The notes below the pieces were generated by a model that was not told the DNA's origin, made no database searches, and worked only from the letters and a program-made list of their open reading frames with translations. Below are positions 53,219-63,245 of a stretch of 64,000 nt of DNA, in pieces; position 1 is the first letter of the stretch; each line of letters opens with the position of its first letter. The stretch is from assembly GCF_016859125.1 (NCBI RefSeq), contig NZ_CP069338.1:1612001-1676000 (forward strand). Direction: 5' to 3'. The translations under genes and the position numbers were made by a program. This DNA comes from Archangium violaceum. GTDB lineage: Bacteria; Myxococcota; Myxococcia; Myxococcales; Myxococcaceae.

Positions 53219-54514
53219 ATGTTGACCACCGCCCCCACCCCACCGGAGTCTCAGGACGCGACGCCGCTCGCCGTCGACCTGGACGGCGTCCTGGCGCGCA
53301 CGGACACGCTGCACGAGGCGCTGCTGCGGTTGCTCAAGCGTCAGCCGTACCTGGCTCCGGCGGTGGTGGGGTGGAGCCTGAGAGGGCGGGCCTTCCTGCG
53401 GGCGGAGGTGGCACGGCGGGTGGAGCTGGACGTGACGCGGCTGCCCTATGACGAGGTGCTGCTGTCGCGCCTGTCCGAGGAGCGGGCACGTGGCCGCCGG
53501 GTGGTGCTGGCCACGGAGGCGGATCGGCGGGTGGCGGAGGCGGTGGCCGCGCACCTGGGCCTCTTCGACGCGGTCCATGCGAATGACAATCCCCTCGGCG
53601 GCCCTCGCGAGGAGGTGCGCCGCTCCGGGCCCACCCGGTCGCTCCCGCGCACGCTGCTCAAGGCGCTGCGGGTGCACCAGTGGGCCAAGAACGTGCTCGT
53701 CTTCGTGCCGCTGCTCGCCGCGCACAAGGGCCTGAACGGGCCGCTCCTGCTCCAGGCGCTGCTGGGCTTCCTCTCCTTCAGCCTGTGCGCCTCGAGCGTG
53801 TACGTGCTGAACGACCTGCTGGACCTGGATTCGGATCGCAAGCACCCCACCAAGCGCAGGCGGCCCTTCGCGGCAGGAGACCTGTCGGTGCGCGCGGGGC
53901 TGTGGTTGGCGCCCCTGCTGCTGGGGGCCGGAGCGGTGGTGGCGCTGCTGCTGCCGCGCGAGTTCCTGGCGCTGCTGGGCACCTACTACGGGATTACGCT
54001 GGCGTATTCGCTGTACCTCAAGCAGGTGATGATGCTGGACGTGCTGGTGCTGGCGGGCCTGTACACGGTGCGCATCTTCGGTGGCTCGCTGGCCGTGGGC
54101 GTGCCCACGTCGAGCTGGCTCTTCACCTTCTCCATGTTCCTCTTCCTGTCGCTCGCGCTGGTGAAGCGGCTGAGCGAGGTGCGGCGGCTGCGGCTGGCCA
54201 ACGAGTCGGCGGCACCGGGGCGCGGGTACGAGGCCGGGGACTACGAGCAGCTGGCCATGCTCGGCGTGTCGAGCGGCTACCTGTCCGTGCTGGTGCTCGC
54301 GCTCTACATCACCAGCAAGGAAGTGACGGCGCTCTACCTCCACCCGGAGCGCTTGTGGCTGCTGTGTCCGGTGATGATGTACTGGGTGGGACGGGTATGG
54401 CTGCTGGCGCACCGCGGCCTGGTGAACGAGGACCCGCTCGTCTTCGCGCTGAAGGACAAGGTCAGCTACGCGGTGGGGCTCATCGCCGCCGGCGTGCTGC
54501 TGGCCGCGACATGA
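53219..54514 (+). CDS. UbiA-family prenyltransferase (DPPR synthase-like) with truncated N-terminal HAD domain
   Basis: The 431-residue protein has two modules. The first 120 residues start a HAD phosphatase (AVDLDGVLARTDTLHEALL with the nucleophile motif; VVLATEADRRVAEAVAAH with motif II) but lack the later Lys and DD motifs. A UbiA prenyltransferase follows from about 140: RVHQWAKNVLVFVPLL, YVLNDLLDLDSDRKHPTKRR (NDxxDxxxD), ITLAYSLYLKQ. It probably moves 5-phosphoribosyl from PRPP onto polyprenyl phosphate in the inner membrane, as in decaprenyl-phosphoryl-arabinose synthesis. The two genes downstream encode the matching epimerase halves. Confidence 0.87.
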   Translation: MLTTAPTPPESQDATPLAVDLDGVLARTDTLHEALLRLLKRQPYLAPAVVGWSLRGRAFLRAEVARRVELDVTRLPYDEVLLSRLSEERARGRRVVLATEADRRVAEAVAAHLGLFDAVHANDNPLGGPREEVRRSGPTRSLPRTLLKALRVHQWAKNVLVFVPLLAAHKGLNGPLLLQALLGFLSFSLCASSVYVLNDLLDLDSDRKHPTKRRRPFAAGDLSVRAGLWLAPLLLGAGAVVALLLPREFLALLGTYYGITLAYSLYLKQVMMLDVLVLAGLYTVRIFGGSLAVGVPTSSWLFTFSMFLFLSLALVKRLSEVRRLRLANESAAPGRGYEAGDYEQLAMLGVSSGYLSVLVLALYITSKEVTALYLHPERLWLLCPVMMYWVGRVWLLAHRGLVNEDPLVFALKDKVSYAVGLIAAGVLLAAT

Positions 54515-54527
54515 GGGAGTAACGGAC

Positions 54528-55862
54528 GTGGGGATGGAGCTGAATTCCTGGGGCAGGTACCCACGCGTGACGGAGCAGCGGGCGCTCCCGGTCACGTGGA
54601 CCACGGAGCCCCTGCCGCGACCGGCCGGAGGCGGCTCGCTGCTGCCATATGGGCAGGGCCGGAGCTACGGTGACTCGTGCCTCAACGCGGGCGGCTCGCT
54701 GCTGACGACGGCGCGGCTGGACCGCTTCCTCGACTTCAACCCGGCCACGGGCGTGCTGCGCTGCGAGTCGGGCGTCACGCTGGACGCCATCCTCCGGCTG
54801 GTGTCGTGGCAGGGCTGGTTCCTGCCGGTGACGCCGGGAACCAAGTTCGTGAGCGTGGGCGGGGCCATCGCCAACGACGTCCACGGGAAGAACCACCACC
54901 GGGCGGGCACCTTCGGACGGCACGTGCCGCGCTTCGAGCTGGTGCGCTCGGACGGCTCGCGACGTGAGTGCTCGCTGGAGCAGAACCGGGACTGGTACGA
55001 GGCCACCATCGGCGGCCTCGGCCTGACGGGGCTCATCACCTGGGCGGACATCCAGCTGCGGCGGATGAGCAACCCGTACATCCACCAGGAGACGATTCCC
55101 CTCTCCAACGTGGACGACTTCCTGAAGCTCGCGATGGAGTCCGAGCAGGACTACGACTTCACCGTGGCCTGGGTGGACAGCCTGGGGCGGGGTCGCAACC
55201 TGGGCAAGGGCCTGTTCTACCGGGGCAACCACGCGCCGCCGCAGTTCGACGCGGTGCCGCTCTCGAAGAGCCACCTGTCGCGCCGGAGCGGCCTGGCCGT
55301 CCCCTTCGACTTCCCGGGCCTCGCGATCAACCGGCTGTCGGTGGCGGCCTTCAACTGGCTCTACTACCACCGGCAGCGGCTCAACCGGACCGGGCTGGTG
55401 CACTACGATCCCTTCTTCTACCCGCTGGACGGGGTGCACCGGTGGAACCGCATCTACGGGCGCCGGGGCTTCCTGCAGTTCCAGTGCGTGGTGCCGGCGA
55501 ACGACGCGGGCACGGCGGCGTTGAAGGAGATCCTCGATCGGGGCGCGCGAAGCGGCATGCCGAGCTTCCTCACGGTGCTGAAGATGTTCGGCGACGTGCC
55601 CTCGCCGGGGATGATGAGCTTCCCGAAGCGGGGCATGACGCTGGCGCTGGACTTCGCCAACCGGGGGGAGCGGACGTACCGGCTGGTGGAGGAGCTGGAC
55701 CGGGTGACGCGCGAGGCGGGCGGGCGGGTGTACCCCGCGAAGGACGCGCGGATGAGCCCGGAGAGCTTCGCGGCGTACTACCCGGAGCGCGAGCGCTTCG
55801 CGAAGTACGTGGATCCCGCGTTCTCCTCATCGTTCTGGCGCCGGGTGAACGGCGCGGGATAA
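54528..55862 (+). CDS. FAD-linked oxidoreductase, DprE1-like
   Basis: The 444-residue protein has the FAD-binding PCMH fold: YGQGRSYGDSCLNAGGSLL (about 43-61), GVTLDAILRLVSWQG, PGTKFVSVGGAIANDVHGKN and TIGGLGLTGLITWADIQLR. The C-terminal substrate domain contains VHYDPFFYPLDGVHRWN and FQCVVPANDAGTAALKEIL, both characteristic of decaprenylphosphoryl-beta-D-ribose oxidases. It would oxidise the 2'-OH of polyprenylphosphoryl ribose. Start GTG 54528 has gggag eight bases upstream; ATG 54534 is possible. It is followed after nine bases by the SDR partner. Confidence 0.88.
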   Translation: MGMELNSWGRYPRVTEQRALPVTWTTEPLPRPAGGGSLLPYGQGRSYGDSCLNAGGSLLTTARLDRFLDFNPATGVLRCESGVTLDAILRLVSWQGWFLPVTPGTKFVSVGGAIANDVHGKNHHRAGTFGRHVPRFELVRSDGSRRECSLEQNRDWYEATIGGLGLTGLITWADIQLRRMSNPYIHQETIPLSNVDDFLKLAMESEQDYDFTVAWVDSLGRGRNLGKGLFYRGNHAPPQFDAVPLSKSHLSRRSGLAVPFDFPGLAINRLSVAAFNWLYYHRQRLNRTGLVHYDPFFYPLDGVHRWNRIYGRRGFLQFQCVVPANDAGTAALKEILDRGARSGMPSFLTVLKMFGDVPSPGMMSFPKRGMTLALDFANRGERTYRLVEELDRVTREAGGRVYPAKDARMSPESFAAYYPERERFAKYVDPAFSSSFWRRVNGAG

Positions 55863-55871
55863 ACCAACCCC

Positions 55872-56612
55872 ATGATGAAGAAGGTTCTCGTCCTCGGCGC
55901 CACGAGCGCCATTGCCCAATCCACGGTGCGGCTGCTGGCCGCGCGGGGCGCGGCGCTGTACCTGGTGGGCCGCAACGCCGAGCGGCTGGACGCGGTGGCG
56001 AGGGATGCCCGGACGCGGGGCGCTTCCAAGGTGGAGACCGAGGCGTTGGACCTGGACGACCTCGCCCAGCACGAGGCGCTGGTGGAGCGCGCCACGGTGG
56101 CGCTCGGGGGGCTGGATGGGGCCCTGCTCGCCCACGGCATCCTCGGCGACCAGGAGGCGGCGCAGCGCTCGTTCGCGGAAGCCGAGAAGGTACTGCGGAC
56201 GAACTTCCTGAGCGCGGTGTCGCTGCTCACGCCGCTGGCCAACCGCTTCGAGGCCCAGAAGGCGGGGACGCTGGTGGTCATCTCCTCGGTGGCGGGAGAC
56301 CGGGGCCGGCAGAGCAACTACGTGTACGGCGCCTCCAAGGGCGCCCTGAGCGTGTTCCTCCAGGGGCTGCGCAACCGGCTGGCGCGCTCGGGCGTGGCGG
56401 TGGTGACGGTGAAGCCGGGCTTCGTGGACACGCCGATGACGGCCGACGTGAAGAAGAACGCGCTCTTCGCCACGCCGGACAAGGTGGCGCGAGGCATCGT
56501 CCGGGCGGCGGACGCGCGCAAGGACGAGGTGTACCTCCCCGGCTTCTGGGGCCCCATCATGTTCGCCATCCGCGGCATCCCCGAGCGCGTCTTCAAACGC
56601 ATGAGGCTGTGA
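55872..56612 (+). CDS. SDR-family reductase, DprE2-like
   Basis: The 246-residue short-chain dehydrogenase has VLVLGATSAIAQSTVRLLA (about 5-23), a Rossmann start of the GATSAIA type found in DprE2. It also has LLAHGILGDQ, VVISSVAGDRGR and the catalytic YGASKGALSVF. It would reduce the 2'-keto intermediate made by the upstream oxidase to give polyprenylphosphoryl arabinose. A C-terminal amphipathic end (IMFAIRGIPERVFKRMRL) may bind membrane. The tight spacing with DprE1-like and UbiA genes supports one pathway. Confidence 0.88.
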   Translation: MMKKVLVLGATSAIAQSTVRLLAARGAALYLVGRNAERLDAVARDARTRGASKVETEALDLDDLAQHEALVERATVALGGLDGALLAHGILGDQEAAQRSFAEAEKVLRTNFLSAVSLLTPLANRFEAQKAGTLVVISSVAGDRGRQSNYVYGASKGALSVFLQGLRNRLARSGVAVVTVKPGFVDTPMTADVKKNALFATPDKVARGIVRAADARKDEVYLPGFWGPIMFAIRGIPERVFKRMRL

Positions 56613-56819: not shown

Positions 56820-58619
56820 ATGGCGTTCTCCAATCCGATGAGCAGCAGCCACCGCTCCCTGCCCGGACGCATCGATGCGCTCTTGCGCTCGTGCGCGATG
56901 CCACTGGCCCCCTTCCTGGCCTACCTGGTGGGGATGGTACTCGGGCTGCAAGGTGACCAGCTCTCCCAATCCGTCCTCTGGCTGCTGCCGCCCACCATCC
57001 TCGTCTGGGGCGTGCTCTACCCGCCGCTGCTCATCCACTACCTGCACAACAGCGCCATCCAGTCGATTCCGGGCGAGCCCCCCGGAATGCGCCTGGGCCG
57101 CCTCCTGAAGCTGCCCTGGCGCATCGCCTTCTACGTGCTGCCGGGCTCCTACGTCTTCGGCGCCATCTTCTTCTGCACCGGCGTCTGCCTGTGGTTCGAC
57201 AAGAGCCTGTGGCTGGTGGTCTGGGGCACCGCCATCGCGCTGTCGCTCAGCCTGCTGCTGTCCTTCCCCGCCGGCATCGTCATCGAGCGCTGGATGCAGC
57301 CCCTGGCCCTCGAGGAGCAGGCGAGCCACCCCCACCTGCGCGTGGTGGGCGGCGGCTTCTTCTGGGTGCGCCAGTCCTGGTTCCTGCCCTACGCCTTCGT
57401 CGTCTGCGTGCTGTCGCTCATCGTCCTGGGCGGCCTCACCGTCGCCGTGCAGACCGGCAACGTGCAGCGCCGCTACATCGAGGACCTGCAGGCCGCCGGG
57501 CAGCACCAGGCCGCCTACATGCTCGAGGATCTGGGCTCCTCCCTCCTGTCCGAGCTGAGCATCCCCGTGGCCGTGCTGGCCGTCTTCCTGCTCACCCTCG
57601 CCACCGTCTCCGCGTGGATGCTGGCGCGCCGCCAGGAGCAGGGCTCGCTCGCGGTGCTCAAGGCCATCGAAGGTCTCTCCGTGGGCAAGGTGCGCCCGCC
57701 CCAGTGGGTGTCCACCGACGAGATTGGTGACCTGGCCTTCGGCCTCAACGCCGTCGTCCTACAACTGAGCGCCCTGCCCCGCACCCTCCAGCAGTCGGCC
57801 GCCCAGCTCGTCGAGGCCGGCGCCACCCTGCGCCACGCCAATGACGATCAGCGCCGCGCCCTCATCACCCAGGCCACCGCCATCCAGGAGACCAACGTCA
57901 CCGCGCAGGAGATCAAACAGACCTCCGACCTCACCGCGCACCGCGCCCGCGAGGTGCTGCACGTGGTGCGTCACGCCGAGGAGCTCAGCCGCGCCGGCAC
58001 CCAGGCCATCGAGCAGACCATCGCGGGCTTCAGCGCCATCCGCGACTCGGTGTTCGCCATCCGCGGCAAGATGGAGCGCCTGCAGGCCAGCGCCGTGCAG
58101 ATCGGTGAAATCACCCAGACGGTGAAGGACCTGGCCGACCAGTCCAACATGCTCGCCCTCAACGCCGCCATCGAGGCGGTGCGCTCCGGCGAGCACGGCA
58201 AGGGCTTCGCCGTCGTGGCCCGGGAAATCCGCCTGCTCGCGGATCAGTCCATCCGCGCCACCACCCGCATCAGCACCATCCTCGACGAGGTGGGCAACGC
58301 CATCGGTGACGCCGTCGCCATGACGGACGTGGGCGCCGCCCAGGTGGAAGGCGGCCTCGGCAAGGTGAAGACATCCGGCGACAGCCTGCGCCAGCTCTCC
58401 TTGATGGTGAACGAGAGCTCCGCGGCCGTGTCTCAAATCACCTCCGCCGTGAGCCAGCAGAACGCCGGCTTCGCTCAAATCTTCAACGCCATCGCCGACC
58501 TGTCGCGCAGCATGGATCAGGCCATGGACCGGCTGGAGTCCACGCAGGAAGCCGCCGAGACCCTCCAGAAGGTCTCCGGCCAGGTCAGCCAGGTCGCAGG
58601 CCAGTACCATGTCGAATAG
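56820..58619 (+). CDS. methyl-accepting chemotaxis protein
   Basis: The 599-residue chemoreceptor has several N-terminal membrane segments ([75 protein letters not shown]) and one near 205. A further segment is at about 250 ([18 protein letters not shown]), followed by a HAMP-like linker. The coiled-coil signalling domain has the hairpin tip [26 protein letters not shown] (residues about 419-444) and [20 protein letters not shown]. It has little extracytoplasmic domain, so it probably senses within the membrane or cytoplasm. Confidence 0.93.
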
Positions 58620-58797: not shown

Positions 58798-58827
58798 TTG
58801 ACCGGGCATGCCTCGTATCTGTAATAT
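58798..58827 (+). promoter_or_regulatory. predicted sigma-70-type promoter of the ACP-PKS-FAAL operon
   Basis: TTGACC (58798-58803) and TAATAT (58822-58827) are separated by 18 bases, in a locally AT-rich patch 60 bases upstream of the ACP start. The 58620-58887 gap holds nothing else I recognise. Confidence 0.55.
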
Positions 58828-58887: not shown

Positions 58888-59232
58888 ATGCACCGGCAGG
58901 AGATTCTCGATCACGTCCGTAACATCATCCTCGCCACCAACAGTGGCCTGTTCCCGGACGACGTGAGCGAGTTCGCCTCGATGACGTATGATCTGGGCAT
59001 GGATTCCTTCCACCTCGAGTCGATGATTTCCCGGCTCAAGGACGAAGTCGCCGACATCGAGTTCACCCCCTGGTACATCAAGGCCTCGCGCCGCGGTCAT
59101 GACACCGTGGGCAGCCTGGTGGACTTCATCGATGAGCGCCTGTCGCGGACCGCATCCGTGAGCACCGCCCAGCCGCGGGCCTCCGACATCTCCCCCGCCG
59201 GGCCCGGTGAGCTCGACGTGGAGGTTGCATGA
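58888..59232 (+). CDS. acyl carrier protein
   Basis: ATG 58888 follows gcgggaggtccat. The 114-residue protein has the ACP helix-loop with YDLGMDSFHLESMISRL, where Ser40 should carry phosphopantetheine. It has an N-terminal helix RQEILDHVRNIILATN and the third helix SLVDFIDERL. An extra Pro/Ser/Ala tail of about 25 residues (SPAGPGELDVEVA) follows. It probably receives a fatty acyl group from the FAAL encoded at 60315 and presents it to the type III PKS, to which it is coupled by an ATGA overlap. Confidence 0.88.
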   Translation: MHRQEILDHVRNIILATNSGLFPDDVSEFASMTYDLGMDSFHLESMISRLKDEVADIEFTPWYIKASRRGHDTVGSLVDFIDERLSRTASVSTAQPRASDISPAGPGELDVEVA

Positions 59233-60287
59233 CGCTGGCAGCACCCCGCCGTCCCACCCTGCTGTCCATTGCCTCCGCCTTCCCGTCCCTGGCCATCACC
59301 CAGGACGAGCTCTACGAGGACCTGTTCAAGCACTGGTACAAGGACATCCGTAACGCCGAGCGCATCATCAAGAACACGGGCGTGCGCCGGAGGTTCTTCG
59401 CGTGGGATCCGCGCGTGGAGCTCAAGAACGGCAACCCCGGCGTGGGAGATCGCGTGCGCGTCTACGAGCGCGTGGGCCTGGAGGTGACGGGCCGGTCCGT
59501 GGAGCAGGCGCTCGGGACGATGGATCGCTCGCGCGTGGGAGCCTTCACCATGACCACCAACTCGGGCTACTCGGGACCCGGGTTGGATCTCTTCATCGCG
59601 AAGAAGCTCGGGCTGCGCTCCAGCATCCGCCGCACCTTCGTGGGCCACATGGGCTGCTTCGCCGCCTTCCCCACGCTGCGGGTGGCCATGGACAGCATCG
59701 CCGCGCGCCCCGACGAGTACGTCATCGCCAACGCGTCCGAGTACGCCTCGCTGCACTACCACTCCACGCCGGATCCGGAGCAGGCCGTCATCCATGGCCT
59801 CTTCGGAGACGCCACGTGCACGGCGGTGATCGGCAGCGCCCCGGATGGCGAGGGCGTCCAGTTCATCCGCTCCCACACCGAGCAGCTCTACGAGACCCAC
59901 GAGCTGATGGGCTGGCACATGCACAACGACGGGTTCCGAATGACCTTGTCGCCCTATGTGCCCTTCGTGCTCGGCGAGCACGTCGACGCCTTCCTGGAGA
60001 AGCTGCTCGGCCCGGAGAAGCTGACCGCCGGCGACATCCAGCACTGGCTCATCCACCCGGGCGGACCGAAGATCCTCGAGGCGCTGGCCCGCCAGCTCAA
60101 GCTGGGCAAGGAGCGGATGCGCGCCAGCTGGCACGTGCTGAGCGAGTACGGCAACTGCGGCGCCGTCACCGTGATGCTGGTGCTCGAAGAAGTCCTGAAG
60201 ACGGACAAGCCCAAACGCGGCGAGTACGGCGTGATGATGGGTTTCGGCCCCGGCCTCACCGTCGAGGGCCTGCTGGTCCGGTTCTGA
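59229..60287 (+). CDS. type III polyketide synthase (chalcone-synthase family)
   Basis: The 352-residue enzyme has the complete triad of type III PKSs: Cys143 in VGHMGCFAAFPTLRVA, His276 in HWLIHPGGPKILEA and Asn309 in SEYGNCGAVT. It has the terminal GFGPGLTVEGLL signature that separates it from FabH. It should extend an acyl starter with malonyl units and cyclise it to an alkylpyrone, alkylresorcinol or similar. Its position between an ACP gene and a FAAL gene implies a fatty acyl-ACP starter. It overlaps the ACP stop by four bases. Confidence 0.9.
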   Translation: MTLAAPRRPTLLSIASAFPSLAITQDELYEDLFKHWYKDIRNAERIIKNTGVRRRFFAWDPRVELKNGNPGVGDRVRVYERVGLEVTGRSVEQALGTMDRSRVGAFTMTTNSGYSGPGLDLFIAKKLGLRSSIRRTFVGHMGCFAAFPTLRVAMDSIAARPDEYVIANASEYASLHYHSTPDPEQAVIHGLFGDATCTAVIGSAPDGEGVQFIRSHTEQLYETHELMGWHMHNDGFRMTLSPYVPFVLGEHVDAFLEKLLGPEKLTAGDIQHWLIHPGGPKILEALARQLKLGKERMRASWHVLSEYGNCGAVTVMLVLEEVLKTDKPKRGEYGVMMGFGPGLTVEGLLVRF

Positions 60288-60314
60288 GTCGTTATCCACC
60301 GAGGACACACACCG

Positions 60315-62159
60315 ATGAGCCAGGAGCCACTGCGGCGGCAGACGGGTCACGTCCAACTCGGCCCCGGCGTGGGGCGCCACCCCACCCGTGACCTTCCCCA
60401 GCGGGCCCCCACCCGCGCCACCCCGGCCCCCGTGCGAACGCTGGCCGAGGCGGTGGTGCACTGGGGACGCACGCGCCCCTCACAGCCCCTCTTCTACTTC
60501 GTGGACCTGGAGGACCGCCTCACCGTCCTCACCGCGGGGGAGCTGCACCACAACGCGATGCGCCTGGGCGCCAACCTGCGCGCGCGCGGCGTGAAGCCAG
60601 GTGACATGGTGGTGCTCTCCTTCGACACCAGCCCCGAGTTCCTCGAGTGCTTCTTCGCCTGCGGCCTGGTGGGCGCCACGCCCTGCCTCATCGAGCTGCC
60701 CTCCTCGAAGGTCTCCGTGCAGGCCTGGGGCGAGCGGCTGCGCGTGAAGCTGCGGCTGCTCGACGCGCGGGCCATGCTCATCGATCCGGACTTCGTGGAC
60801 CTGGCGCACGAGGCCCTCCTGGACTTCCATCCCGAGCCGGGCCACGAGGCCCCCTTCGTGACCACCCCGAAGGAACTGGAGGCCGACGCCGAGCCCTTCG
60901 AGCCCCCCACCGTCGACGCGGAGCAGGTGGCCTTCATCCAGTTCACCTCGGGCACCACGGACGCGCCCAAGGGCGTTCAAATCTCCCACCGGGCGCTCAT
61001 GGCCAACTGCGCGGCCATTGGCGAGGGCGGCCAGTGGGACTCGGATGACCTGATGGTGTGCTGGCTGCCGCTCTACCACGACATGGGACTGGTGGCCTCC
61101 ACCCTGTCCTCCTTCGTGCACGGCCTGCCCACGGCGCTCATCCCGCCCTTCGGCTTCCTGCTCAAGCCCTCGCGCTGGCTGTGGGCCATGCACTACTTCC
61201 GCGCCACCTCGTGCTTCGCGCCCAACTTCGCCTACCAGCTGTGCGTCAAGCGCATCAAGGACGCGGAGCTCGAGGGCCTGGACCTGAGCGCGTGGGAGCG
61301 GGCCTACAACGCCGCGGAGTTCATCCACGCCGACACCGTGCGCCAGTTCTCCGAGCGCTTCCAGCCCTGCGGCTTCGAGCAGGACGCGTGGTTGCCCTCG
61401 TACGGCATGGCGGAGATGGTGGTGGGCGTGTCCTCGCGGGCCCGGAACGAGCCCCTGCGCATGGAGACGCTCTCCCGCTCCGCGCTGGCCTCGCGGCGGC
61501 GGGCCGAGCCCCACCCCGACGGCAGGGGCCCGGACGCGTTCACCGTGCTCAGCGTGGGCCGGATGCTCAACGGCATCGAGCTGCGCATCGTCGACGACGA
61601 GGGCCGTCCGGTGGACGAGCGCCAGGAGGGTGAAATCCTCCTGCGGGGCACGTCCCTCTTCAGCGGCTACTTCAAGAACCCCGAGGCCACCGACGGCGTG
61701 CTGCGCGACGGCTGGCTGTACACCGGGGACCTGGGCTACGTGGCCGACGGCGAGCTCTTCATCTGCGGGCGCAGCAAGGATCTCATCATCAAGGCGGGTG
61801 AGAACCACCACCCGTACACCATGGAGAACGCCGCCTCCCAGGTGGCCGGCATCCGGGTGGGCTGCGTGGCCGCCGTGGGGGTCAACAACCTCCAGACGGG
61901 CACCGAGGACATCGTCATCGTCTGCGAGACGACCGAGACGAAGCCCGACGCGCTGCGCCAGCTGTGCAAGCACGTGGAGGAGATGGTCTACCAGGGCTCC
62001 GGCGTGCGCCCCAACCGCGTCATCCCCGTCGCCCCGCACACCGTGCCCAAGACGACCAGCGGCAAAATCAAGCGCGCCTACATCCGGCAGAACATCGAGG
62101 CCTTCGAGAGCCTCTCGCTGCTGGTGACGCCCCCGGCCCGGCAGGCCATCGTCCACTGA
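60315..62159 (+). CDS. fatty acyl-AMP ligase (FAAL-type AMP-dependent synthetase)
   Basis: The 614-residue ligase has the adenylate-forming motifs FIQFTSGTTDAPKGVQISH (about 212-230), WLPLYHDMGLVAS, SYGMAEMVVG, LYTGDLGYVADGELFICGR and the C-terminal SGKIKRAY lysine. VCWLPLYHDMGL and ICGRSKDLIIKAGENHHP are typical of FAALs rather than CoA ligases. The protein activates a fatty acid as acyl-AMP and transfers it to an ACP. An N-terminal Arg/Pro-rich extension of about 40 residues precedes the domain. It ends the three-gene operon just before a strong terminator. Confidence 0.92.
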   Translation: MSQEPLRRQTGHVQLGPGVGRHPTRDLPQRAPTRATPAPVRTLAEAVVHWGRTRPSQPLFYFVDLEDRLTVLTAGELHHNAMRLGANLRARGVKPGDMVVLSFDTSPEFLECFFACGLVGATPCLIELPSSKVSVQAWGERLRVKLRLLDARAMLIDPDFVDLAHEALLDFHPEPGHEAPFVTTPKELEADAEPFEPPTVDAEQVAFIQFTSGTTDAPKGVQISHRALMANCAAIGEGGQWDSDDLMVCWLPLYHDMGLVASTLSSFVHGLPTALIPPFGFLLKPSRWLWAMHYFRATSCFAPNFAYQLCVKRIKDAELEGLDLSAWERAYNAAEFIHADTVRQFSERFQPCGFEQDAWLPSYGMAEMVVGVSSRARNEPLRMETLSRSALASRRRAEPHPDGRGPDAFTVLSVGRMLNGIELRIVDDEGRPVDERQEGEILLRGTSLFSGYFKNPEATDGVLRDGWLYTGDLGYVADGELFICGRSKDLIIKAGENHHPYTMENAASQVAGIRVGCVAAVGVNNLQTGTEDIVIVCETTETKPDALRQLCKHVEEMVYQGSGVRPNRVIPVAPHTVPKTTSGKIKRAYIRQNIEAFESLSLLVTPPARQAIVH

Positions 62160-62196
62160 CCGCCCCCGCCTGGGGTTACACGGACTTCATTTCCCG

Positions 62197-62235
62197 ACGC
62201 CGGAGCGCCCCAGCGCTCCGGCGTTTTGCTTTTTC
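62197..62235 (+). terminator. rho-independent terminator of the ACP-PKS-FAAL operon
   Basis: A perfect 11-bp stem, acgccggagcg/cgctccggcgt, with a 6-base loop is followed by ttttgcttttt. The same stem sequence recurs at 63281. Confidence 0.9.
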
Positions 62236-62328: not shown

Positions 62329-62357
62329 CTAGACCAATTTTTCCTGAGGAGTTGGAA

Positions 62358-63245
62358 ATGTCCCGTGGCGGTGTCTCCAAGAGTGGGAAGTTCGCGGTGG
62401 TGCTCGGCGCCGTCATGGCGCTGACGGGTTGCAACAACGCCGAGCAGCAGCCGGCCGAGGAGCAGCAGCCCACGCAGCAGGAAGTGAGGAGTGGCTGCGC
62501 TACGGTGGACCTCACCGAGGCCGAGAAGGCCACGGTGGAAATGGCGATCAGCGGCCGTACGCGCGCGCAGGCTCGCGCCAACGGCTCGGTGAACGTGAAC
62601 GTCTACTGGCACGTCATCAACAACGGCACGGGCATCGCCAACGGTGACATTCCCCAGACGCAGATCGACGCGTCCATCGCCGTGCTGAACGACGCGTACA
62701 AGAACACGCCGTTCAAGTTCACCCTGGCGGGCGTGGACCGCACCACCAACTCGCAGTGGTACACCTGCTCCGGCGGCGGCTGCGAGACGAAGATGAAGAA
62801 CGCGCTGCGCAAGGGCGGCGCGGGCGACCTCAACGTCTACTCCAACAACATGGGCCGTGGCCTGCTGGGCTGGGCGACCTTCCCCTCCAGCTACGCCTCC
62901 AACCCGAAGATGGACGGCGTGGTCATCCTCTACAGCACCGTGCCCGGCGGCACCGCGGCCCCCTACAACGAGGGTGACACGCTCACCCACGAGGCCGGCC
63001 ACTGGTTCGGCGCGTACCACACCTTCCAGGGAGGCTGCACCGGCTCGGGCGACTACGTGAGCGACACCCCGGCCGAGTCCTCCGCCGCCTACGGCTGCCC
63101 GGTCGGCCGCGACACCTGCTCCACCTCCGGCCTGGATCCCATCACCAACTTCATGGACTACACCGACGACGCGTGCATGAACACGTTCTCCGCGGGCCAG
63201 GCCGACCGCATGGACGCGCTGACCATCCAGTACCGCGGTATCTGA
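62358..63245 (+). CDS. M43-family (pappalysin-type) zinc metalloprotease lipoprotein
   Basis: ATG 62358 has gaggagttggaa upstream. The 295-residue protein starts with a lipobox (VVLGAVMALTGCNN). It has the propeptide-like region ATVEMAISGRTRAQARA, then VNVYWHVINN and PQTQIDASIAVLNDAYKNT. The active site is THEAGHWFGAYHTF (HExxHxxxxxH: H211, E212, H215, H221), and the Met-turn is in NFMDYTDDACMN. Four or more cysteines suggest disulfides. It should act as a surface or secreted endopeptidase, useful to a predatory, protein-degrading bacterium. It has its own promoter-like sequence and terminator. Confidence 0.93.
   Translation: MSRGGVSKSGKFAVVLGAVMALTGCNNAEQQPAEEQQPTQQEVRSGCATVDLTEAEKATVEMAISGRTRAQARANGSVNVNVYWHVINNGTGIANGDIPQTQIDASIAVLNDAYKNTPFKFTLAGVDRTTNSQWYTCSGGGCETKMKNALRKGGAGDLNVYSNNMGRGLLGWATFPSSYASNPKMDGVVILYSTVPGGTAAPYNEGDTLTHEAGHWFGAYHTFQGGCTGSGDYVSDTPAESSAAYGCPVGRDTCSTSGLDPITNFMDYTDDACMNTFSAGQADRMDALTIQYRGI

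Follow-up and report, generated by a model that had tools for sequence, protein, structure and literature searches.

The window analysed here is a stretch of 64,000 nucleotides from the genome of the soil myxobacterium Archangium violaceum. At positions 58888-62159 of its forward strand, open reading frames and family profiles identify the genes of an acyl carrier protein (ACP), a type III polyketide synthase (PKS) and a fatty acyl-AMP ligase (FAAL), which follow each other in this order in one operon, overlapping or lying close together as the original prediction had placed them. The direct neighbours of this triad are a chemoreceptor and a protease (Pfam), and neither a methyltransferase nor a monooxygenase gene was found adjacent to it from the open reading frames and the domain scan at the locus. 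The features are:

56820..58619, + strand, chemoreceptor (MCP) gene, part of an inserted block; identified by domain match, adjoins the triad in 11 genomes
58798..58827, + strand, weak promoter-like site (TTGACC-18-TAATAT) that precedes the ACP start by about 60 nt
58888..59232, + strand, acyl carrier protein (114 aa) with Ser40 of DLGMDS as phosphopantetheine site and a distinctive conserved stretch, IEFTPWYIKASRRGHDTVGSLVDF
59229..60287, + strand, type III polyketide synthase, 352 aa; C143-H276-N309 and Trp229
60315..62159, + strand, fatty acyl-AMP ligase, 614 aa; identified by PDB matches and pocket residues
62196..62225, + strand, hairpin resembling an intrinsic terminator, with a T-rich run after it; shuffle test

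A promoter-like sequence and a strong terminator had been predicted to flank the operon. The former holds up weakly, with one site found against 0.3 expected in shuffled sequences, while the latter depends on the scan: the hairpin is absent from 100 shuffles when its own sequence, and thus a pattern derived from the site itself, is searched for, whereas the generic terminator scan alone finds one against 1.5 expected, which is no better than chance. The four-base overlap of the ACP and PKS genes (ATGA or GTGA) is present in 13/13 copies of the triad for which spacing was measured; in the copy left out of this check (G039 C11) the two genes do not overlap, which gives 13 of 14 copies overall. 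The dN/dS values of the three genes, determined against three relatives, are 0.24-0.49.

Pfam assigns no family to the ACP at an E-value of 0.001, the PP-binding profile being unmatched, and the ACP models of NCBIfam match it weakly (best E 1.5e-4, under the curated cut-off). Nonetheless, Ser40 is invariant in all 14 aligned rows, which comprise 13 triad ACPs and one ACP from an ftp-like cluster described below, and the predicted model is a four-helix bundle in which the helix of residues 40-54 starts at this serine. ACPs account for most of the 50 structures listed in a search with this model, and the best Z of 12.5 is to an ACP, a value within the range (below about 13) that the structure-search tool treats as uncertain for helical bundles. 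The fact that an invariant serine is found at the start of helix II of a four-helix bundle indicates that this protein is a divergent ACP despite the missed Pfam profile, and upholds its earlier description as a carrier with Ser40.

The type III PKS carries both chalcone/stilbene synthase domains of Pfam (PF02797, 94.9 bits; PF00195, 62.2 bits; cut-off 27 each), and its best matches among solved sequences are type III PKSs. C143, H276 and N309, together with the F339-GPG loop, are invariant in 13 aligned rows and occur in every one of the 14 triad PKSs, and the fold agrees with this assignment: the AlphaFold model (pLDDT 86) aligns to PKS18 with a Z of 44.6 and an rmsd of 2.0 over 344 residues, and to PKS18, PKS11 and CylI with Z of 43-45. 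The catalytic triad is therefore complete, as predicted. A function as DpgA was rejected, given that NF042429 scores 151.7 bits against a cut-off of 425 and that the scores of three further type III PKSs are similar (155-203), as was KAS III, for which the Pfam match ACP_syn_III_C (55.2 bits) lies below both type III PKS domains. Alignment with the ftp-like PKS and with PKS11 places Trp229 at a position that is linked to resorcinol formation according to PMC5916927; it is a leucine in two of the 14 triad PKSs. PKS11 shares this tryptophan, yet alkylpyrone synthesis has been ascribed to it as well.

The best PDB matches of the third protein are FAALs, and its residues T105, P129, W250, P252, M257 and F305 match T83, P107, W224, P226, M231 and F279 of EcFAAL, signature residues of the blocked CoA pocket and the pantetheine pocket named in PMC8460268 (counted by hand on the alignment with 3pbk, with a constant offset of one). 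All six are invariant in 9/9 aligned rows, two of which are ftp-like, in an alignment that leaves out loci L004 and L006. The top NCBIfam model is NF006624, fatty acyl-AMP ligase, which scores 400.8 bits against a cut-off of 600; the ftp-like FAAL likewise stays under this cut-off, with 458.9. The PDB matches and the six published residues support the predicted identity.

Mining for the triad, which had been proposed as a check, returned 14 copies in 13 of 195 Myxococcota genomes. Triad-type PKSs were found in these 13 by a profile search, and window-type ACPs in the same 13 (E<1e-38), with profiles that were themselves built from triad members (13 PKS rows, nine ACP rows) and that scored only the top candidates of a loose first pass. 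Since nine of the ACPs found went into the ACP profile, the weight of its result lies in the absence of strong matches in other genomes; five further genomes have weak ones (E 2e-8 to 5e-5). An ACP lies upstream and a FAAL downstream of the PKS in 13/13 triad-PKS loci retrieved, one per genome, and the fourteenth copy, G039 C11, also has both. The three genes are side by side in all 14 copies, including three in genus g7 (G039 and G041) that are placed elsewhere in the genome. The clade also holds paralogous PKSs that have neither a FAAL nor a window-type ACP next to them in the four contexts examined, in G000 (at 4.677 Mb), G033, G080 and G026, with G031 and G032 outside this set, and the triad PKSs do not form a clade cleanly separate from them (2 changes; AU p 0.489). 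In a plasmid collection, 194 records matched, all below 60% identity, the best among the matches listed being 33%.

The same genome carries, 23 kb from the triad and oriented towards it, an ftp-like cluster that matches the gene set described for Myxococcus xanthus (synthase, methyltransferase, AMP synthetase and monooxygenase; PMC5006271), here with an ACP gene between the methyltransferase and the FAAL. Triad and ftp are arranged tail-to-tail, their FAAL matches 1.2-23.5 kb apart, in 10 of the 13 triad genomes, and this placement is seen in Archangium and in a second genus (g6). The ftp clade was assigned by gene content, and the ftp-type comparison covers 14 of 15 loci, the one missed (L031) being on a shortened stretch; linkage of ftp and DprE1 is not universal (e.g., G027). 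FAAL, ACP and type III PKS thus occur together in both clusters, but the order is ACP-PKS-FAAL in the triad and PKS-methyltransferase-ACP-FAAL-oxidase in ftp, and the triad lacks the tailoring genes, methyltransferase and monooxygenase, of the ftp-like locus. Identity between the two sets of proteins is 30% for the PKS, 37-38% for the FAAL and 25% for the ACP.

Phylogeny separates them as well. The PKS and FAAL trees were built with 13 triad copies, all but that of G032, together with chosen ftp and outside rows; four stand-alone PKSs were included, G031, G032 and a split G077 copy being left out. In the 43-row PKS tree, which has long branches flagged by the program, window-type and ftp-side PKSs form separate clades with supports of 100/99 and 99/96. 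A quick FAAL tree, with SH-aLRT only, unites the triad FAALs in one clade (99), while its deep branches are weak. Triad PKS and FAAL both fall outside the ftp-like clades, whose members in this genome come from another locus. Against the window FAAL, the ftp-like FAAL of its own genome scores 316 bits, less than several FAALs encoded at other loci, which reach 404 to 356 bits. Judged by identities and trees, the triad is a separate, long-diverged second version beside the ftp-like cluster. A common origin of the two PKS clades gives an AU p of 0.108, and the clades join at 78/62 when five long rows are removed; the two types of PKS may share an ancient ancestor.

The original prediction knew of no characterised example of this layout, which is too strong with respect to the literature. 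In M. xanthus, the type III PKS FtpA together with a FAAL is described as producing alkylresorcylic acid (Hayashi et al. 2011, ChemBioChem 12:2166, via citing papers), and the entry of a FAAL review that cites this work gives alkylresorcylic acid, C18:0 and in vitro data. As in the triad, a FAAL is associated with a type III PKS in a myxobacterium, and Ftp makes a phenolic lipid derived from a fatty acid. Acyl transfer in vitro is also reported for a FAAL-ACP pair of M. xanthus, the genes of which are unspecified in the source. In the cyanobacterial cylindrocyclophane pathway, the stand-alone proteins CylA and CylB are reported to perform FAAL-ACP loading and the type III PKS CylI to take an ACP-bound substrate and form a resorcinol ring. 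Unlike the triad, this pathway is described with two type I PKSs between the ACP and the type III PKS, a halogenase and a dimerising enzyme, and CylI, although it matches the fold of the window PKS with a Z of 43, has 22-23% identity over the structural alignment. Use of acyl-ACP by type III PKSs is reported for Gcs, SCO7671, ArsB/ArsC and CylI. Of these, Azotobacter ArsB/ArsC and Streptomyces Gcs are said to accept acyl chains from an ACP as proposed for the triad PKS, but ArsB/ArsC receive the chain from a fatty acid synthase, through its ACP domain, and the passages on ArsB/ArsC and Gcs mention no FAAL. For the second locus, titles and abstract openings, which mostly do not extend to subscription journals, yielded no publication except a possible mention in a survey of biosynthetic gene clusters (PMC12766979), which speaks of gene duplication among the alkylpyrone clusters of Archangium.

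It is likely, on these grounds, that the operon encodes a private pathway from fatty acid to ring lipid that resembles Ftp but is separate from it and long diverged. The FAAL would convert a free, probably long-chain, fatty acid to the fatty acyl-adenylate and pass the acyl group to the phosphopantetheine on Ser40 of the ACP, which would deliver it to Cys143 of the PKS. The PKS would then add malonyl-CoA units and cyclise the chain. Most likely, as far as the sequence can tell, the product is an alkylresorcinol, an alkylresorcylic acid or an alkylpyrone made from the ACP-borne fatty acid, the first two being favoured because of Trp229. The predicted feed from FAAL through ACP to PKS is supported as an idea, indirectly, by the co-inheritance of the three genes; the loading of the ACP, the hand-over to the PKS, the chain length and the type of ring are inferred.

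Mere neighbourhood of the genes would be a different explanation: the PKS may use ordinary acyl-CoA or housekeeping acyl-ACP, while FAAL and ACP serve another enzyme. The stand-alone PKSs of the same clade are in line with this, as are two loci in which a FAAL and a distant relative of the ACP lie beside fatty-acid desaturase and crotonase-like genes (L121) or fatty-acid hydroxylase, carboxyltransferase and KAS III genes (L123). The maintenance of the three genes as neighbours in all copies, even at the three g7 sites, and the four-base overlap make this explanation unlikely. That the triad is a plain recent duplicate of the adjoining cluster, producing the same lipid, is very improbable. The tail-to-tail arrangement, the three shared functions and the duplication event mentioned in PMC12766979 would suit it, but low identities, separate PKS clades, better-scoring FAALs at other loci, and a different gene order with methyltransferase and oxidase missing all oppose it, and recent duplication of ftp was rejected on the basis of identities and trees.

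There is somewhat more room, though still little, for a joint locus in which the triad feeds the membrane methyltransferase and FAD oxidase of ftp to give a mixture of methylated or oxidised lipids. Both tailoring genes lie at ftp, the window triad itself being flanked by chemoreceptor and protease; the two clusters are linked in 10/13 genomes, and an O-methyltransferase-like gene adjoins two triads far from ftp (G039 C18 and G041). Nonetheless, no gene resembling that O-methyltransferase or that of ftp lies beside G039 C11, the remaining triad not linked to ftp, and the linkage may reflect a single ancestral insertion. The private pathway is preferred.

The idea of a FAAL-ACP-type III PKS pathway has a precedent in a related bacterium, and what is new is the separate, much-diverged second version. 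Myxobacteria hold at least two much-diverged forms of FAAL, ACP and type III PKS, adjoining in one genome, and these offer a natural pair for studying mutual recognition and orthogonality among the three proteins. Surveys of biosynthetic gene clusters may record what are two distinct pathways as a single alkylpyrone cluster. The upstream chemoreceptor adjoins the triad in 11 of its 13 genomes, and among 92 genomes of the family no others had orthologues at 65% or more. An inserted block that works as a make-and-sense unit, in which this receptor detects the ring lipid of the triad as a cue for motility or development in Archangium-type myxobacteria, is a long shot, and the co-travelling chemoreceptor is a possible lead. 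The original prediction had missed this receptor, the ftp-like FAAL-ACP-PKS cluster and another PKS of the triad's clade, the third, which has no FAAL beside it.

The operon lies within 58888-62159 of the window and comprises the following genes:

From 58888, forward strand: acyl carrier protein (ACP, 114 aa), the first of the three genes
Next, forward strand: type III polyketide synthase (PKS, 352 aa), its start (ATG) overlapping the stop codon of the ACP gene by four bases
Ending at 62159, forward strand: fatty acyl-AMP ligase (FAAL, 614 aa), beginning 27 bases after the PKS

It is clear that this triad is real and conserved, and the gene identities, catalytic residues and operon claimed in the original prediction are upheld by direct observation of the domains, the residues and the four-base ACP-PKS overlap. 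The PKS contains both chalcone-synthase Pfam domains, its C143, H276 and N309 are invariant across 13 aligned rows and found again in all 14 triad PKSs of a second comparison, and its AlphaFold model (pLDDT 86) aligns to PKS18, PKS11 and CylI at Z 43-45. The solved structures nearest to the FAAL are FAALs, and in a hand-read alignment its T105, P129, W250, P252, M257 and F305 match the residues named for EcFAAL in the available text of PMC8460268. The ACP, with no Pfam match and weak NCBIfam matches, is divergent by its sequence; Ser40 is invariant in 14/14 aligned rows, and the predicted model is a four-helix bundle with helix II starting at Ser40, whose structural matches are mostly ACPs, the best Z (12.5) falling in a range that the structure-search tool rates uncertain for helical bundles. 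A terminator-like hairpin lies 3' of the triad, the promoter-like site is weak evidence, and dN/dS is 0.24-0.49 in three comparisons.

The three genes are inherited together. Among 195 Myxococcota genomes, triad-type PKSs scoring >590 bits occur in 13 genomes as 14 copies, and the ACP profile at E<1e-38 returns the identical set. Since triad members supplied the sequences for both profiles, the telling part is the gap below the triad scores: weaker ACP matches comprise one extra in genome G039 (E 3e-26) and five in other genomes (E 2e-8 to 5e-5). The ACP is upstream and the FAAL downstream in all 13 fetched loci (one per genome), and likewise present in the fourteenth copy, on contig C11 of G039; for comparison, ACP and FAAL flank 14 of the 15 fetched ftp-type loci. 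ACP and PKS share ATGA or GTGA in the 13 other copies measured; the C11 copy lacks this overlap. The extra triad-type ACP gene of G039 (locus L125, 7880-8293) is separated by one gene from a trehalose-phosphate synthase/phosphatase gene. Loci L121, L122, L123 and L124 of other Myxococcota hold distant relatives of this ACP close to a FAAL; in L121 the neighbours include desaturase and crotonase-like genes, and in L123 they include hydroxylase, carboxyltransferase and KAS III genes.

The original prediction knew of no characterised example with exactly this layout, a novelty claim that is reduced by the Ftp pathway of Myxococcus xanthus, where FtpA, with a FAAL, is reported to give alkylresorcylic acid (Hayashi 2011, as cited in PMC10896814, PMC8460268, PMC5006271 and PMC5916927; a 2025 FAAL review, citing the same work, gives alkylresorcylic acid, C18:0, and in vitro data). 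At ~1.696-1.701 Mb of the same Archangium genome, oriented towards the triad, lies a cluster of PKS, membrane methyltransferase, ACP, FAAL and FAD oxidase genes. We infer this to be an ftp orthologue, given that the gene set is that described for M. xanthus and that the closest match of its PKS is PKS11 (330 bits), the structure on which, according to the source text available, FtpA was modelled. The parts worth following are a diverged second copy beside ftp and a chemoreceptor that travels with it.

A recent duplication of ftp is rejected as the origin of the triad on the identity between the two sets (PKS 30%, FAAL 37-38%, ACP 25%) and on their separate clades. In a PKS tree of 43 rows, the window-type enzymes, triad and stand-alone alike, group at 100/99 and those of the ftp side at 99/96; PKSs from actinobacteria, planctomycetes, Deinococcus and proteobacteria fall on the side of the window type (98/93). 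Judged from these sequences the divergence is old, and the deep branches may be ordered otherwise: an AU test does not reject a tree that groups the two (p 0.108), and they join weakly (78/62) when five long rows are dropped. In a quick tree, triad FAALs group at 99* and ftp FAALs cluster with two relatives at 100*, further FAALs falling between them on weak deep branches. The available text of PMC12766979 mentions a gene duplication event in Archangium alkylpyrone clusters, which we think refers to this pair, a reading that does not draw on its figure; no other mention of the triad locus was found in the literature text available.

In the proposed mechanism, the FAAL would load the triad's own ACP, which would donate the acyl chain to C143 of the PKS for extension with malonyl units and subsequent ring closure. 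The hand-over from ACP to PKS is plausible, since Gcs, SCO7671, ArsB/C and CylI are reported to accept acyl-ACP. Against such a feed, PKSs of the same clade stand alone, one of them at 4.677 Mb of the same genome, and in four such contexts (G000, the Archangium genome itself, G033, G080 and G026; G031 and G032 left out) there is no neighbouring FAAL or window-type ACP; moreover, triads and stand-alone PKSs are not cleanly separated in the tree (AU p 0.489). One stand-alone PKS (L057, 8495-9550, reverse strand; G080 contig 133) has Ser replacing the catalytic Cys, and another window-type PKS (L059, G077:C1:551087-552128) is split over two reading frames, through degradation or assembly error. 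With regard to the product, Trp229 aligns with ArsB W281, the position controlling resorcinol formation and conserved in FtpA, SrsA, PKS10 and PKS11 according to the available source text. Twelve of the 14 triad enzymes carry this Trp; the copies of G039 C18 and G041 have Leu instead. PKS11 is also named for pyrones and, therefore, the residue gives a lean on ring type, not a result.

The 64 kb window belongs to a 12.68-Mb genome, and its triad is preceded by:

53219-56612: UbiA-type prenyltransferase, DprE1-like oxidase and short-chain reductase (SDR) in a row, presumably resembling decaprenylphosphoryl-arabinose genes
56820-58619: chemoreceptor (MCP)

By match coordinates, triad and ftp FAALs are tail-to-tail in 10 of the 13 triad genomes, separated by 23.5 kb in G000, 11.6 in G002, 9.0 in G003, 5.1 in G004 and G006, 8.8 in G005 and 1.2 in G031-G034. 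G039 and G041 (genus g7) carry them on separate contigs, and the 8.9 kb contig in G080 ends too early to show linkage. In G039, ftp adjoins UbiA-DprE1-SDR with one short ORF between, and it also lies near DprE1 in triad-less genomes (e.g., G062 at 6 kb, G077 at 7 kb and G072 at 12 kb), though not everywhere (e.g., G027). In Archangium (g1) and genus g6, an MCP-ACP-PKS-FAAL-M43 protease block separates the DprE1 group from ftp. MCP orthologues of at least 65% identity occur in 11 of 92 genomes, every one beside a triad, and the remainder reach at most 49% (E 1e-90); the control, DprE1, matches in 66/92. The whole block probably arose in one event, either acquired or assembled as a unit. DprE1 has no match at E 1e-90 in G002, G003 and G005, and G002 keeps the UbiA and SDR neighbours.

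M43 (pappalysin-like) metalloprotease genes vary in number between triad and ftp (window 62352-63245; loci L051, L114 and L054). The G039 C18 triad has a carnitine/choline acyltransferase-like gene upstream (L055, 5545-7680) and an O-methyltransferase downstream.
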